From positions 1-64,000 of the forward strand of contig NZ_LDTF01000051.1 in assembly GCF_001477495.1 (NCBI RefSeq): DNA of 64,000 nucleotides. Reading direction: 5' to 3'. This document shows, in pieces, positions 8,583-49,360 of this stretch. The stretch's first letter is position 1. Every line of letters begins with the position of its first letter. The DNA comes from Sphingomonas yabuuchiae (GTDB lineage Bacteria > Pseudomonadota > Alphaproteobacteria > Sphingomonadales > Sphingomonadaceae). The notes below the pieces were generated by a model, which worked only from the letters and a program-made list of their open reading frames with translations, made no database searches and was not told the DNA's origin. Position numbers and translations under genes: made by a program.

Positions 8583-9911
8583 ATGGCGAGTGCGCGTTGG
8601 TTGGATGGAGTGCGGCCTTATGTCGAGCCCGCACCGCTGGCCTCGCTTGCGCTCGGCATCTCGTCGGCCTTTCCGCTGACCATGATCAACGCGACGCTGG
8701 CCAGCCGGCTGGCAGAAGCGGGGATCGAGAAGAAGAGCGTCACGGCCTTTGCGCTGGTGATCCTGGCCTATAATCTGAAATGGCTCTGGGCCTGGATCGT
8801 CGAGGGGGTGAAGATTCCTGTCCTCCACCGGCTGGGCCAGCGTGTCTCGTGGTTGCTGGTCGTGGCGGCGCTGGTGTGTGCGGCGGCGATCAGCCTGGGC
8901 CTCGCCGATCCGCGCGTGTCATTGGCACAGACGGCGATGGCGGCCCTGGCGCTGGGAGTTGCGGGGGCGACGTTCGACATCGTGATCGACGCCTATCGCA
9001 TCGAGTTGCTCGAGCCGCGCCAGTTAGGCGTGGGGGCGGGCATGGGCCAATATGGCTGGCGGATCGGATCGGCCTTGATCGCCTCGCTCTCGCTGGTCAT
9101 CGCGACACGGGCGGGGTGGAGCGTGGCCTATATGGTAAGCTGTGCCTTCGCGCTGCCCGCAGTCCTGACCGCGCTGTTCATGGGCGAGCCGAAGCGGCAT
9201 AACGAAATCACCGCCAAGCGCCCTAGCGAGGGGATCGTCCGCGCGGTCGTCGGCCCCTTTGCCGAGTTTTTCCGCCGTCAGGGCGCGCTCGTCATCCTGG
9301 CCTTCATCCTGGTCCACAAGATCGGCGACACGCTGGCCAACCTGACCTTCCGCTTGTTGTTCAACGACCTGGGGTTCAGCAAGGACGAGATTGCGCTGTA
9401 CGATGTGGGCGTCGGCTTCTGGGCACTGCTGATCGGCGTGTTCGTCGGCGGCGTGCTCTATGCGCGGCTGGGGATGAAGCGCTCGGTGCTGATCAGTCTG
9501 GTGCTGATGGCGGTGTCGAACCTGTCCTTTGCGGGGCTTGCCGCGCTGGGTCATTCCAATTGGGGCATGGCGGGGGCGATCGGGTTCGAGAATTTTTCGA
9601 GCGGGATCGGCGGCGTCACCGTCGTCGCCTATTTCTCCGCGCTGACCGACCTGCGCTTCACCGCCGCGCAATATGCGCTCATCTCGGCGGCGGCGAGCGT
9701 GGTCGGGCGTATCCTGAGCGGTACGACGGCGGGCGCGCTGGTCGAGCAATTCGGTTATGTCGATTTCTATCTGCTGACCACGGTCGTCGCGGTGCCGGGC
9801 GTCCTGTTGTTCTGGTGGATGGCGAGGTCGGGCCTGGTCGACCGTTCGATCGGCAGCGCAGGCGTCGCCGGAGAAGGCGACGCCCGTCGCGAGGCGCCGG
9901 TCAGTAACTGA
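8583..9911 (+). CDS. AmpG-like MFS transporter
   Basis: A 442-residue, 12-segment major facilitator. The stretch GVGAGMGQYGWRIGS after TM4, with PFAEFFRR before TM7, resembles the AmpG/PAT branch (muropeptide or acetyl-CoA permeases). No beta-lactamase gene is nearby, so cell-wall recycling is inferred only from the family. I chose ATG 8583, 8 nt after AAGGTGAG, over the in-frame GTG at 8571. Its stop overlaps the convergent DUF6628-like gene. Confidence 0.75.
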   Translation: MASARWLDGVRPYVEPAPLASLALGISSAFPLTMINATLASRLAEAGIEKKSVTAFALVILAYNLKWLWAWIVEGVKIPVLHRLGQRVSWLLVVAALVCAAAISLGLADPRVSLAQTAMAALALGVAGATFDIVIDAYRIELLEPRQLGVGAGMGQYGWRIGSALIASLSLVIATRAGWSVAYMVSCAFALPAVLTALFMGEPKRHNEITAKRPSEGIVRAVVGPFAEFFRRQGALVILAFILVHKIGDTLANLTFRLLFNDLGFSKDEIALYDVGVGFWALLIGVFVGGVLYARLGMKRSVLISLVLMAVSNLSFAGLAALGHSNWGMAGAIGFENFSSGIGGVTVVAYFSALTDLRFTAAQYALISAAASVVGRILSGTTAGALVEQFGYVDFYLLTTVVAVPGVLLFWWMARSGLVDRSIGSAGVAGEGDARREAPVSN

Positions 9912-10329
9912 TCGGCCGTCCCTCGTCCGCAAAGGCCGCCGCGACGGCGGCGGCGCTTACCAGCACGCTGTCGACCCGCCGAACGCCGAGCAGATCGGTC
10001 ATGAGAAAATGCGCCTTTTGCGGTGCTGTTTCCATCTGGGCAAGGATGGTCATCAGCGCTGCCTCCGCCGCCGTCATCCGCGCACAGCAGCACGGCGCAA
10101 TCGCAATCTGCCCCGAGGCATGGGCGGCCAGATCGGCCATCAGCGTCCGCATCAGGATCAGCGGACGCCGGAAATCCTGCCCGAACATAGTGAACAGCGT
10201 GTGCGACGCGCGGGCATCCGCCAGCCCGTGCGCGCCCATCCGACGTATCGCGAACAGGGCAATCCGGGCATGGGGGCAGGCCGGCAGCATGTGGGGCAAC
10301 GCTGCGGCGAGGGTGGTGGTTTCGGCCAT
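9901..10329 (-). CDS. DUF6628-like protein with Cys-Cys-Cys motif, predicted Fur target
   Basis: A 142-residue protein with no signal peptide or membrane segment. It resembles, from memory, the DUF6628 family of sphingomonads: ARIALFAIRRMGAHGL near the N-terminus, FRRPLILMRTLMAD, then APCCCARMT with three consecutive cysteines (80-82), and a LLGVR segment. Function is unknown. The cysteine triplet could bind metal. A sequence closely matching the bfd Fur box lies about 42 nt upstream, which suggests iron control. ATG 10329 follows GGAG; the in-frame ATG 30 nt earlier lacks a ribosome-binding site. Confidence 0.6.
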   Translation of the reverse strand: MAETTTLAAALPHMLPACPHARIALFAIRRMGAHGLADARASHTLFTMFGQDFRRPLILMRTLMADLAAHASGQIAIAPCCCARMTAAEAALMTILAQMETAPQKAHFLMTDLLGVRRVDSVLVSAAAVAAAFADEGRPISY

Positions 10330-10339
10330 CGGCGGGGAC

Positions 10340-10353
10340 TCCGTAATTACGGA
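10340..10353. promoter_or_regulatory. 14-bp perfect palindrome over the ribosome-binding region of the DUF6628-like gene
   Basis: TCCGTAATTACGGA is its own reverse complement and sits 11-24 nt upstream of the start codon, touching the GGAG. It may be an operator or an RNA hairpin limiting translation. No matching regulator is recognised. Confidence 0.4.
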
Positions 10354-10370
10354 TCCCATGCTAAACGCTC

Positions 10371-10392
10371 GCTATTGATAGTCAATCGCAAA
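10371..10392. promoter_or_regulatory. Predicted Fur box
   Basis: GCTATTGATAGTCAATCGCAAA matches the sequence upstream of bfd (45507-45528, reverse complement) at 17 of 22 positions. It lies about 42 nt upstream of the DUF6628-like gene. Confidence 0.55.
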
Positions 10393-10422
10393 TAAAGGAG
10401 GCGACGTTGTCGGCTCGTCGCA

Positions 10423-11742
10423 TCAATGCGGCGCCTCGTCATTCTCCGAGAGAATTTGTCCGGCCAAGTAAAGCGATCCCGCGATCAGGACATGGGCCGG
10501 GTTCTCAAACCGATCGGCGATCAGAGCGAGCGCGTGCGAAGGGCCACGGGCAGAAACGGCCTTCAGGCCCAAGGCGTGGGCCTGTTCGACAAGACTTTCG
10601 GGCGAGTGGCAAGCGTGGTCGGGCACGGGCACGGTGACGATCAGGTCGACCATGCCGCCGAGCTTCTCCAGAACCGGCCCGGCCTCCTTGTTCGCCAGCA
10701 TGCCCAGAACGAGTGCAGTCGGCCCATTGGAACGCCATCCCGCCATGGCCCGCGCCACCGGCGTCGCAGCGGAGGGATTGTGTGCGCCGTCCAGCCAGCA
10801 TTGGGTCTCGGCGGGCAGCACCCGCGTCAACGGCCCGTGCCTTAAACGCTGCATCCGAGCCGGCCACCGGACGCTAGTCGCTGCCTGCATCAAAGCAGCA
10901 TTCGGCACGATCAAGGCCTTTTGATGCCGAAGCATCGCCACCGCCAGCGCCAGGTTGCGCGATTGATGCCCACCCGTCAGGCCCGGCCGGGGCAACGTGA
11001 TTTGTCCGTGCCTGTCTTCGTAGGACACGCCATGGCGCGTGGACGTGCTCGACCAAGCTTGTCCCCGCGCGAAGACAGGAGCCTCGGCGGTTGCGGCAAC
11101 GTCGGCGATCGCGTCTCGCAGGGGGCGGGCATAGTCCATGGTGACCAGCGGCGTGCCCCGCTTCGCGATCCCCGCCTTTTCGCGTGCGATGCCGGTCAGT
11201 TGGCGGCCCAGAAACGCCTCGTGATCGATACCCAGCGCAGCGATACCGCACACGGCAGGAGGGGGCAGGATATTGGTAGCGTCCAGACGACCGCCCAAGC
11301 CCACTTCAACGATCGTCGCGGCGGCCGGATTGCGCGCGAAGGACAGGAACGCAGCCGCCGTCGTCACTTCGAAGAAGCTGGCGCCGATCCCCTCGGCTCG
11401 ACCCAGCACCTCGTCGAGCACCGCCGCCAGCGCATCGTCCCCGATCAAGCGGCCATTCAGCCGGATACGTTCGTTGAAGCGGACGAGGTGCGGGCTGGAA
11501 TAGACATGTACGCTTTGCCCGGATGCCTCGATCGCGGCGCGCAGAAAGGCGCAGGTCGAGCCCTTGCCGTTGGTGCCCGCGACATGGAAGACCGGCGGCA
11601 GATGCCGTTGCGGATCCCCCAGTCGTCCGAGGAGGGTCGTGATCCGCTCCAGACCGAGAACATCCGCACCGGGCGACAGGCTCCATAGCCGGTCGAGCTG
11701 TGCCTGGACGGCCGGATGGTCGGAACGGGCGTGATCGGGCAT
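10423..11742 (-). CDS. folC: Bifunctional folylpolyglutamate synthase / dihydrofolate synthase
   Basis: Adds glutamate to dihydropteroate and to folates (Mur-ligase fold). ATP loop GTNGKGST (56-63), SSPHLVRFNERI, the conserved EVGLGGRLDATN, and the C-terminal LDGAHNP motif are all visible; 439 residues is normal. I chose ATG 11742 (MPDHARSDHP); a longer frame reaches 11808 but its extra N-terminus is not family-like. It is the last gene of the trp-accD-folC set, 86 nt after accD. Confidence 0.92.
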   Translation of the reverse strand: MPDHARSDHPAVQAQLDRLWSLSPGADVLGLERITTLLGRLGDPQRHLPPVFHVAGTNGKGSTCAFLRAAIEASGQSVHVYSSPHLVRFNERIRLNGRLIGDDALAAVLDEVLGRAEGIGASFFEVTTAAAFLSFARNPAAATIVEVGLGGRLDATNILPPPAVCGIAALGIDHEAFLGRQLTGIAREKAGIAKRGTPLVTMDYARPLRDAIADVAATAEAPVFARGQAWSSTSTRHGVSYEDRHGQITLPRPGLTGGHQSRNLALAVAMLRHQKALIVPNAALMQAATSVRWPARMQRLRHGPLTRVLPAETQCWLDGAHNPSAATPVARAMAGWRSNGPTALVLGMLANKEAGPVLEKLGGMVDLIVTVPVPDHACHSPESLVEQAHALGLKAVSARGPSHALALIADRFENPAHVLIAGSLYLAGQILSENDEAPH

Positions 11743-11828
11743 CGGCCGGACTCTTGGAAAGCGGATATGACAAGAGGCGGACCTCTCGGCCCGCCCCTCT
11801 AATGCCATCAGTTGAAAAAGGCGACGGC

Positions 11829-45481: not shown

Positions 45482-45506
45482 TTTTCTGCAAACGGCTCGC
45501 AATATG

Positions 45507-45528
45507 CTTGCGATCCACTCTCATTAGC
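45507..45528. promoter_or_regulatory. Predicted Fur box upstream of bfd
   Basis: CTTGCGATCCACTCTCATTAGC, ending 22 nt before the bfd start, has the alphaproteobacterial Fur-box shape (TGCGA...TCTCATTA). Related copies lie upstream of the DUF6628-like gene and of the TonB receptor at 47134-49290. Confidence 0.65.
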
Positions 45529-45549: not shown

Positions 45550-45732
45550 ATGGAGAGCGCCTTGGTCGTCTGCGTCTGCAATGCCATTCGGGAATCCCAG
45601 GTCCGCGATGCGGCGCGCGCCGGTTCCATGACCCCGTGTCAAATGTATCAGGCGCTCGGTCGCCAGCCCAAATGCGGCCAGTGCGCGGTCCTGGCACGCG
45701 CCATCATCGACGAAGAACGCGCCGCCGCCTGA
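45550..45732 (+). CDS. bfd: Bacterioferritin-associated ferredoxin-like (2Fe-2S) protein
   Basis: A 60-residue protein with the Bfd cysteine pattern CxC (8, 10) and CxxC (42, 45) around KCGQC, binding a [2Fe-2S] cluster. In E. coli and Pseudomonas Bfd reduces and releases iron stored in bacterioferritin. No bfr gene is next to it. A Fur-box-like sequence just upstream predicts induction in low iron. Confidence 0.88.
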   Translation: MESALVVCVCNAIRESQVRDAARAGSMTPCQMYQALGRQPKCGQCAVLARAIIDEERAAA

Positions 45733-47133: not shown

Positions 47134-49290
47134 TCAGAACCTTACGTCCCAGCCCAGCGTAACGGTGCGCCCGCGCCCGGCGAAATAGCTGAAATTGTCG
47201 GTCGGCAGCCGGGTGTCGCTGGAATAGTCGATGTAGAAGCGGTCGAGCAGGTTCTGCGCCGCGATATAGATCGTACCCTTGCCGGTATCATAGGCGATGG
47301 TGCCGTCGACGACCGTATAGCCGCCAAAATCGTTGCGCGGGTCGCGCAGCCGCCCCTTGAATGTCCGCGACAGGAAGAATTGGCTCTGCAACCGCGCCGA
47401 CCACGGCCCGCGATCATAGCTGGCCGCCAGGTTGAGCCGGTCTGGCGAGATGTTGGTGCCGTCCAGATCGGTGTCGACGATCCCGTCGGGCGGCGTATTG
47501 CTGTCATAGCGGCCCGACAGATGCGCATAGCCGATCGACAGGCGCGTGCCCGGCAGCGGCAGGCGCATGCCCAGGTTGATCTCCAGCCCCTGGATTTCGG
47601 TTCGCAGACGCTGGACGTCGAAGATGCCGCCCGGATTGGCGATCAACAATTGCCCCTTGTCGCTGGACGACCAGAAATAGGCGGTGCTGGCATCGAACGG
47701 CCCGCGCTTCACCTCGATACCGATCTCGCGATTGTTCGATACGATGGGCGCGATGTCGAGGAAGGTGTCGATCGAAACACCCGGCTGGTTCACCGCGCGG
47801 GTGATGCGGCCGATATCGGGGACGGTGAAACCTTCGGCATAGCTGGCATAGGCACGGATGCCCCGGATGGGCTCGACGATGACGCCGCCGTTGAACAGGG
47901 CGTCCTGGAAGGTCGGCGTACCGCCCTTTACCGAAACACGGTTCGACGTCGCCAGCGTGGTATAGTCGGCAATACCGATGCGGACATTCTCCCATCGCAC
48001 CCCGCCCGCCAGTCGCACCGCCTTGTCGAACAGCGCTAGGTTCAGCTGGCCGAACGGCGCTAGGCTCCGGAAGTCGCTGGGCGGCACCCAGACGCGGTTC
48101 GTCAGGATCAGCCGCTGCTCGGTCTTGTCCCACAAGGCATCGAAACCGATGATCGCGGTCAGTGCCTCGAAACCGGGGATCGCGCGCTCATAGCTGATCT
48201 TGCCGCCAATCTTGCGACTGCGGTTTTGCGATTGGTCGATCAGAGTCCCCACCGGCGCGATCAGTGAGTCCTGGAAGGTTGCGATCGGGTTGATCTCCGC
48301 CCCGAAGGTGTCACGGGTGCGGTTCCAGAATATCTGGGTGACGAGGTTGCCCCGGGCCAGGTCCGGATCGGTGAGCGACAGCGCCACGCTCTCCGTTCGG
48401 CTCGCAGCACTGCGACCCGGCGGATCGCCGCGCTGGGCGCTGGTCGGTAGGCCGGTGACGCGGTTACCCGCCACCGCGACATAATCGCCGTCACCCTTCA
48501 GTTCGAACCGGCTGGCTATCAGGTTGAGCCTCATCGTATCGGTCACCGCATAGCCCGCGCGCGCGAACAGCGAGGTGGTTCGCGAATCTTGGGTCTCGCC
48601 CTGAGTCAGGTTCAGGCCGACCCGGCGCCCCTCCCCATCATAGAAAACGCCGCGCTTTTCATAGACCGCGCCTGCGCTGATATCGAAGCGGCCCGACTTG
48701 TACTGCAGCAGCCCGCCAACCTTGCCGCCCAGCCCGTCGCCGTGAAAATCGGCGTCGGCCGTGCCCTGCACCAGTGCGCGGCCGCTCAGTCCTTCACGAC
48801 GGGGCGCGCCGACTGTCACCTGGTTGACGATGCCACCCGTCCCGCCGACACCTTGCAGCGCATTCGAGCCATAGATCAGTTCGACCCGGTCGATGAAGAA
48901 GCCGTCGATCGTATAGCCGTCCCGGCTGCCGTCGCGCAGCGGCGTGGTCTGCGGAATACCGTTGATCGCATAAAGCGGCGAGCGCCCCCGCAGCGTCTCG
49001 CCTGCACCGGACAATTTCTGGCGGGTCGGCGAGAAAGATGGAGTCAGGGTCGCGACGGCATCGACCACCGAGCCGGAGATGGCGATCTGCTGATCCAGCG
49101 CCTGCTTGTCGATGATGTCGATGGTCAGCGGCAAGGCGTTGGGCGGCAGGACGGAGCGCGCCGCGCTCACGACGATGTCCTGCGCGGGCATATCGCCCGC
49201 TTCTGGTGCCTCCGCCTTATCCTGCGCCTGAGCTATCGCCGGATAGAGCGCGACCGAGGTCATCGCCAGAAGCCGCCAACCGATATTCAT
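47134..49290 (-). CDS. TonB-dependent outer-membrane receptor, probable siderophore type
   Basis: A 718-residue receptor with signal peptide (1-22, ending AQA), TonB box QDIVVSAAR, plug domain (about 45-165) and a 22-strand-type barrel ending in aromatic VRF. The gene pair with a PepSY protein and a Fur-box-like sequence 49 nt upstream points to ferric-siderophore uptake. The exact ligand is unknown. Start is ATG 49290; a GTG 9 nt earlier is possible. Confidence 0.87.
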   Translation of the reverse strand: MNIGWRLLAMTSVALYPAIAQAQDKAEAPEAGDMPAQDIVVSAARSVLPPNALPLTIDIIDKQALDQQIAISGSVVDAVATLTPSFSPTRQKLSGAGETLRGRSPLYAINGIPQTTPLRDGSRDGYTIDGFFIDRVELIYGSNALQGVGGTGGIVNQVTVGAPRREGLSGRALVQGTADADFHGDGLGGKVGGLLQYKSGRFDISAGAVYEKRGVFYDGEGRRVGLNLTQGETQDSRTTSLFARAGYAVTDTMRLNLIASRFELKGDGDYVAVAGNRVTGLPTSAQRGDPPGRSAASRTESVALSLTDPDLARGNLVTQIFWNRTRDTFGAEINPIATFQDSLIAPVGTLIDQSQNRSRKIGGKISYERAIPGFEALTAIIGFDALWDKTEQRLILTNRVWVPPSDFRSLAPFGQLNLALFDKAVRLAGGVRWENVRIGIADYTTLATSNRVSVKGGTPTFQDALFNGGVIVEPIRGIRAYASYAEGFTVPDIGRITRAVNQPGVSIDTFLDIAPIVSNNREIGIEVKRGPFDASTAYFWSSSDKGQLLIANPGGIFDVQRLRTEIQGLEINLGMRLPLPGTRLSIGYAHLSGRYDSNTPPDGIVDTDLDGTNISPDRLNLAASYDRGPWSARLQSQFFLSRTFKGRLRDPRNDFGGYTVVDGTIAYDTGKGTIYIAAQNLLDRFYIDYSSDTRLPTDNFSYFAGRGRTVTLGWDVRF

Positions 49291-49338
49291 ATCCGCCACC
49301 CCCTTTGTGGTGGCGGCTCTTAGGCAAAAGAATTCAAA

Positions 49339-49360
49339 ATTGCAAATCGGTCGCATTAGC
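49339..49360. promoter_or_regulatory. Predicted Fur box upstream of the TonB receptor
   Basis: ATTGCAAATCGGTCGCATTAGC. Its reverse complement matches that of the bfd site at 15 of 22 positions, sharing GCTAATG and GCAA ends. It lies about 49 nt upstream of the receptor start. Confidence 0.6.

Follow-up and report, generated by a model that had tools for sequence, protein, structure and literature searches.

A DUF6628 gene of Sphingomonas with a conserved predicted Fur box and its relatives in the Alphaproteobacteria

Introduction

The closest described systems are the Fur regulons of Sphingobium and Caulobacter. As the available part of the Sphingobium SYK-6 study describes, purified Fur1 bound boxes of the type considered here before tonB2, fiuA, and feoA, the promoters of these three genes rose under iron limitation, and deletion of fur2 had no effect (PMC7376174). 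For Caulobacter, the accessible text reports that bfd rose 57-fold when iron was short and 40-fold when fur was mutated, and it lists several unnamed hypothetical genes beside bfd in the Fur regulon (PMC3751524).

The gene examined here encodes a member of PF20333 (DUF6628), a Pfam family of unknown function. Its box is of the same type as the SYK-6 boxes, which lie before feoA and receptor genes; the available part of that study treats uptake genes (PMC7376174). Caulobacter vibrioides, in contrast to the source genome, has no PF20333 match. DUF6628 also resembles Bfd (Fer2_BFD, PF04324), being a small protein with cysteines that is encoded behind a Fur box and adjoins bfr in several genomes. 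It differs from Bfd in that 50 DUF6628 proteins gave no PF04324 match, the structural model is all-helical, and those clusters hold bfd in addition. What is known of how bacterioferritin iron is released concerns mainly Bfd. A gene that recurs at bfd-bfr loci beside these two, and that overlaps hemP in a family lacking the Fur box, is a candidate for a further step. Neither DUF6628 nor PF20333 was named in any paper of the literature searched; Rodionov and others 2006, reportedly a comparative study of alphaproteobacterial iron regulons, lay outside that search. As far as our searches reach, the place of DUF6628 in the Fur regulon, the class-wide family, and the links to bfd-bfr and hemP are new. 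The analysis gives a nameless family a concrete, predicted place among Fur targets and shows it to extend well past Pfam's DUF6628.

The DUF6628 gene and its predicted promoter

The window, i.e., the whole analyzed stretch of 64,000 nucleotides of Sphingomonas yabuuchiae DNA, carries the DUF6628 coding sequence on the minus strand at 9901-10329 (142 amino acids, stop codon included in the coordinates). The initial annotation had assigned the protein to DUF6628, and it is indeed a member of PF20333, with a whole-protein score of 46.3 bits where Pfam requires 27; NCBIfam gave no match to the window protein. We set the start codon by comparison with orthologues. The start at 10359 in the list of open reading frames was rejected as very probably wrong: the ATG there runs into the predicted -10 hexamer, and the orthologues use the ATG at 10329. 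Read directly from the sequence, a GGAG at 10339-10342 (minus strand) is the probable ribosome-binding site, and GGAGTC is frequent at this place in orthologues. Directly upstream, on the same strand, the list places an open reading frame at 10423-11808, which we take to be folC-like. The best named relative was S. parapaucimobilis, with 99% identity. Among plasmid records, the window protein gave one match, from Sphingomonas parapaucimobilis and annotated as "DUF6628 family protein," and two distant homologues searched against the same records gave none.

A predicted Fur box lies before the gene at 10371-10393 on the minus strand, with the palindromic core GCGATTGACTATCAATAGC at 10371-10389, and scored 24.2 bits with a matrix derived from feoA and bfd promoters. 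Earlier, the site had been given as 42 nt upstream of the gene; the site itself was found there, but its distance from the true start codon at 10329 is 41 nt. The promoter scan returned one candidate, TTGACT-16 nt-TAGCAT (10385-10358, minus strand), which matched at 9 of 12 positions, compared with 0.1 expected in shuffled sequences. Its predicted -35 hexamer, TTGACT, occupies 10380-10385 within the Fur box, and its predicted -10 hexamer, TAGCAT, occupies 10358-10363, is present in all 12 close relatives compared, and overlaps the ATG of the longer open reading frame. The palindrome thus covers the -35 hexamer, the position expected of a repressor.

The site in the form TTTGCGATTGACTATCAATAGC (10371-10392, minus strand) had been said to share 17 of 22 positions with the bfd site. 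This was borne out in the same register (45507-45528), and one base on the agreement is 18 of 22. Elsewhere in the window, counting both strands, one 22-mer matched at 17 positions (the bfd site), none at 16, and three at 15. The TonB-receptor site, which had been said to share the same ends, is real, at 25.6 bits, but only 13 to 14 of its 22 letters are shared with the DUF6628 site, and it is the family matrix that unites the two. The pattern GCNATTGANNNTCAATNGC had one exact match in the window and 5 matches at up to 3 mismatches. Since these were no more frequent than in shuffled sequences, the loose pattern alone proves nothing.

Fur-type sites in the window and in the source genome

Expectation maximization on the 200-nt upstream regions of 27 feoA matches and 12 bfd matches, with DUF6628 excluded, yielded a palindromic 21-bp matrix. 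The resulting motif, TATTGCGAATCATTCGCAATA, is a Fur-type inverted repeat. Training sites scored from 14.4 to 30.3 bits, and the matrix maximum is 32.9, compared with 24.2 for the DUF6628 box; the threshold of 14 bits was picked after the training scores, the lowest being 14.4, had been seen. Only four places in the 64-kb window reached 10 bits or more: the DUF6628 site (24.2), two sites before bfd (20.6 and 13.6), and one before a putative TonB-dependent receptor gene (25.6). The bfd gene, for the 60-amino-acid bacterioferritin-associated ferredoxin, lies on the plus strand at 45550-45732 (PF04324 above its cut-off at 45565-45714), and its two Fur-like sites together span 45484-45526 on the same strand, the stronger at 45484-45504 and the weaker at 45506-45526. 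It was the weaker one that had been reported before; the stronger one lies 22 nt further upstream. The receptor, assigned by eye, has its predicted Fur box on the minus strand at 49338-49358. Its open reading frame was listed from 49425, and because the box falls inside this longer frame, the start is probably at 49290, where the protein would begin MNIGWRLL..., a signal-peptide-like sequence as judged by eye.

When at most 3 mismatches were allowed, TTGCNATTGANTNNCAATNGC had 19 matches in the source genome as a whole (two sites being counted on both strands), compared with 2 for the backwards control. Six of the 19 were inspected: five precede feoA, three TonB-dependent receptor genes, and bfd, and the sixth (locus L040) has no recognizable gene downstream. 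Among these targets, the receptors were named by eye, feoA was confirmed by PF04023, and bfd was confirmed by PF04324. The genome encodes a Fur protein (C155:5040-5396; 135.5 bits with PF01475).

Conservation of the box across DUF6628 loci

Of 61 related genomes, 34 had a PF20333 match; these all belong to the 37 of the same genus, and the 24 genomes from other families of the order had none. No match was obtained in 14 control genomes, Caulobacter vibrioides included. Within the Sphingomonadaceae, it was present in 75 of the 298 genomes, which represent 31 of the 96 genera. The initial annotation had made its prediction depend on a conserved site upstream of orthologues. A scan with the matrix, which never saw DUF6628, found the box at 139 of 139 loci, each with at least 15.5 bits, while none of 1,390 control segments from the same loci reached 10 bits (maximum, 6.7). 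A 140th locus (L034), missed at first by the open reading frame filter and scored separately, had 28.3 bits. The 139 loci comprise 29 of the 30 taken from the same genus (out of 34 matches), 30 of 30 from the family (out of 77 places; 16 genera outside the genus), and 80 of 80 named loci (out of 262). They yielded 129 distinct box-centered segments and 52 distinct 21-mers, and they are not independent, because there are only these 129 distinct segments and the 80 named records are nearly all titled Sphingomonas. In the 80 named orthologues, box columns were 88% identical on average, compared with 50 to 54% in the flanks. Across genera, the letters of the box vary (GCGATTGACTTGCAATAGC, GCGAATGATTATCATTAGC, and GCGAACGATTCTCATTAGC) with the palindrome constant, and the upstream neighborhood, by eye, differs as well. 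Thus, the earlier proposal that ties DUF6628 to iron is supported by a Fur-type box that is kept at every one of these loci and recognized by a matrix from feoA and bfd promoters. We consider it very probable, on the strength of these promoter comparisons, that the DUF6628 gene is under direct Fur control.

One of the named records, titled Arthrobacter sp. TPD3018 (L100), has a Sphingomonas-type DUF6628 locus, so this genome is probably mislabeled.

Distant homologues across the class

Two matches to PF20333 that fell below its threshold came from other alphaproteobacterial families, and their genes carry boxes of 24.8 and 26.6 bits. Profile A4 consisted of the DUF6628 alignment plus both of these homologues; searched against the class, it matched 66 of 385 genomes at an E value of at most 0.1, the source genome and one congener included. 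From this search, 58 of 75 rows, representing 55 loci, formed the first set; we omitted 2 own-genus rows and 15 others (E of at least 0.003; partial-looking, with stops, or in long unrelated open reading frames). A box of at least 14 bits was present within 420 nt upstream in 47 of the 58 rows; among 940 control segments taken from ten of these genomes, 2 had one. Three of the 11 rows lacking it are second copies that immediately follow a first one, and the only row of family f178 in this set (L291) lacks it too.

Neighboring copies of the DUF6628-like gene, in tandem or divergent, occur at L263, L277, L278, and L268, and the second copies at L263, L277, and L278 have no box of their own.

Searched against 398 genomes of the phylum, a broader profile, A6, matched 47, of which one lies outside the class. 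The second set comprised 40 of its 56 rows: omitted were four genomes already in the first set (G713, G397, G462, and G383), 7 own-genus DUF6628 copies, one already read (G205), second rows of G872, G1029, and G1051, and a weak second row of G683. Here, only 14 of 40 rows reached 14 bits and 17 of 40 reached 10 bits, a rate that counts against a universal Fur box. No box of at least 14 bits was found in the 12 rows of family f29, in 3 rows of f178, or in the single genome outside the class, and outside f29 and f178 it was present in 14 of 25 rows. Also lacking it were the Sphingomonadaceae loci L352 (both copies), L365, and L378, which hold more distant copies of the gene, as well as L360, L364, and L370. 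The boxless homologues of f29 and f178 suggest that control differs between lineages.

Twelve distant homologues were compared with PF20333 directly: two were just below the cut-off, one gave a weak match at chance level, and nine gave no match. Of 47 A6 members, 6 matched PF20333 at an E value of at most 0.01, and five of these were added DUF6628 proteins; hence, 1 of 42 distant members was recognized. The alignment shows DUF6628 to be the Sphingomonadaceae branch of a wider alphaproteobacterial family.

Neighboring genes and the proposed role

In the first set, bfr was located within 1.5 kb of the DUF6628-like gene in 7 of 50 genomes (G557, G687, G647, G357, G415, G462, and G522). These belong to seven different families, compared with 0.05 cases expected from genome sizes and copy numbers. 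Two further genomes of the set had bfr within 8 kb, and 43 of the 50 had bfr somewhere in the genome. Five of the seven bfr clusters also contain bfd, and at L255 the order on one strand is DUF6628-like gene, bfd, bfr. The second set added three loci (L358, L368, and L371) where both bfr and bfd lie no more than about 1.7 kb away. A plain count is weaker than the distance test: 7 of the 55 distant loci (up to 15 kb) contained bfr, and so did 1 of 20 control stretches, each 20 kb long. At the 80 named DUF6628 loci, neither bfr nor bfd was found nearby. In the Sphingomonadaceae, bfr was present in 27 of 30 genomes with DUF6628 (the exceptions being G013, G022, and G028) and in 13 of 17 genomes without a PF20333 match (P = 0.24), two of which (G061 and G074) carry a distant copy.

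A second association was with hemP. In 9 of the 10 loci with a hemP motif, the ATG of the DUF6628-like gene overlaps the hemP stop codon (ATGA, in frame with the match); all nine belong to family f29 (L349, L351, L353, L354, L355, L357, L363, L369, and L371). Four of the overlapping HemP sequences were checked with Pfam, and all four matched PF10636. The tenth locus (L375), outside these overlaps, has hemP about 1 kb away on the opposite strand. Thus, in f29, where the box is absent, the overlap ties the gene to another iron gene.

At most of the distant loci, the neighbors are not iron genes, as judged by eye and by a Pfam tally. In this tally, 79 of 109 nearest-neighbor open reading frames were scanned, which gave LysR regulators (5), alpha/beta hydrolases (4), MFS transporters (3), ferritin (2), and sulfatases (2). 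Most bfr cases are missing from it because the scan took only the nearest genes from a simple open reading frame caller. Apart from ferritin, the tally suggests no single pathway.

Single cases were a divergent SufE gene at L272 and, at L304, a divergent gene for a flavin reductase with NAD- and FAD-binding domains. Sulfatase-like genes stand beside or near the DUF6628-like gene at L255, L282, and L268.

The whole explanation that we favor, and regard as probable, is that DUF6628 is a Fur-controlled iron-starvation gene whose product handles intracellular iron. When iron is sufficient, iron-loaded Fur would bind the palindrome over the -35 hexamer and block RNA polymerase. When iron falls, Fur would leave the box, and a small, all-helical, probably cytosolic protein would be made. 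This protein would act on iron already inside the cell, in bacterioferritin or in heme, alongside Bfd and Bfr. That the protein helps to free or handle such iron together with Bfd/Bfr, rather than serving uptake itself, is a tentative reading to which we give somewhat less than an even chance; among possible roles, one with intracellular iron is the most likely because distant members repeatedly adjoin bfd-bfr or overlap hemP. With still more reserve, DUF6628 and its mostly unannotated relatives might form one core iron-starvation family throughout the Alphaproteobacteria, a third factor beside Bfd and bacterioferritin that is tied to hemP in another lineage and recovers iron from stores or heme.

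The main rival keeps the regulation and changes the function. Small Fur-controlled iron-sparing proteins occur in other bacteria, such as FbpA and FbpB of Bacillus, and DUF6628 could likewise be an effector that binds iron-using proteins and switches them off or remodels them, in which case the bfd-bfr and hemP neighbors would reflect shared control only. This would fit a small, helical protein that matches no enzyme or metal-site profile and that has a Fur box before all DUF6628 loci scored, and it would fit the genomes that have the gene and no bfr match and the lack of a bfr link in the Sphingomonadaceae. However, the closeness to bfr recurs in families that are far apart, beyond what shared control alone needs, and no partner of such an effector is known. 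We judge this explanation unlikely, at about one chance in a few.

Conserved residues, the cysteine loop, and the predicted structure

An alignment of 50 DUF6628 sequences with the window protein first (A2) has ten invariant residues: P16, L25, R29, G35, D38, L57, R61, C81, T86, and E89. In the wider set, only R29 (in all 107 rows where that position is occupied) and E89 (108 of 108) remained constant, and the same two were constant in A6. R29 lies in helix 1, and E89 lies at the start of helix 4, beside a loop that usually contains cysteines. The initial annotation had treated three consecutive cysteines as a trait of the family; this did not hold. Of the three, the middle one (C81) is constant throughout the 50 DUF6628 proteins, whereas its neighbors C80 and C82 already differ among DUF6628 members. 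The loop is devoid of cysteine in 8 of the 58 distant rows. On the alignments, the Cys-Cys-Cys form is a local form of a variable loop.

If the loop bound iron, an Fe-S cluster, or heme, the protein would be an iron or heme carrier or sensor. The invariance of C81 speaks for such a function, as does at least one loop cysteine in 50 of 58 distant rows, some with CPxC. Moreover, hemP and bfr, the recurrent neighbors, both concern heme-linked proteins. Against it, the eight cysteine-less distant rows all have a Fur box of at least 18.5 bits, so metal binding by the loop cannot be what all members of the family have in common, and the flanking cysteines are variable as described. We therefore hold this function to be improbable, roughly one chance in five.

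From the window protein together with 63 of its 67 nonredundant close relatives, AlphaFold2 confidently predicted a small helical protein with a mean pLDDT of 89.8, an N-terminal helix, and six helices from residue 19 on. Sequence searches against solved structures found only unrelated proteins (best E values, 0.055 with A2 and 0.82 with A6), and Foldseek against the PDB returned nothing at an E value of at most 0.001. The best VIA-align row was an unrelated allergen (Z, 4.3); the comparison with an AhpD-like protein (1knc) gave a Z of 3.7 over 88 residues at 4.3 Å, which is below the meaningful level for helical proteins. In the absence of a convincing match, we assign the protein to no described fold. 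When the A2 proteins were searched against Pfam at E values up to 1, all 50 matched PF20333, and PF04324 was not among the 10 families matched by any of them. NCBIfam gave six families for A2, each matched by a single member (best E, 0.0091), and one single-member match among the 47 members of A6.

Many of the distant homologues in the range L255 to L309 end in -LH, -VH, or -IH, a possible conserved C-terminal tag that was not observed in the DUF6628 branch.

Other readings of the box

A different Fur-family or iron regulator, such as Mur, Irr, or Zur, might use the box, and the gene would then answer to manganese, heme, or zinc. The source genome does encode a second, weaker Fur-family protein (36 bits), and the f29 and f178 homologues lack the box. 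Scans of 17 homologues whose upstream regions stay below 14 bits gave Irr consensus scores near those of the control and no clear RirA-like signal. Against another regulator, the matrix was learned from the iron genes feoA and bfd, and, in the part of the Sphingobium study available, it is Fur1 that binds the boxes of feoA and receptor genes, the loss of fur2 being without effect (PMC7376174). This makes another regulator very unlikely. Because TTGACT is part of it, the palindrome could also have been kept as a -35 promoter region instead of an operator. We give this idea almost no credence, as both arms of the palindrome are conserved and other genera keep it with an altered center that lacks TTGAC, e.g., GCGAATGATTATCATTAGC.

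Five Sphingomonadaceae loci (L377, L367, L368, L372, and L373) carry a more distant copy of the gene with a strong box of its own (20.5 to 27.6 bits), and the copy at L368 adjoins bfd and bfr.
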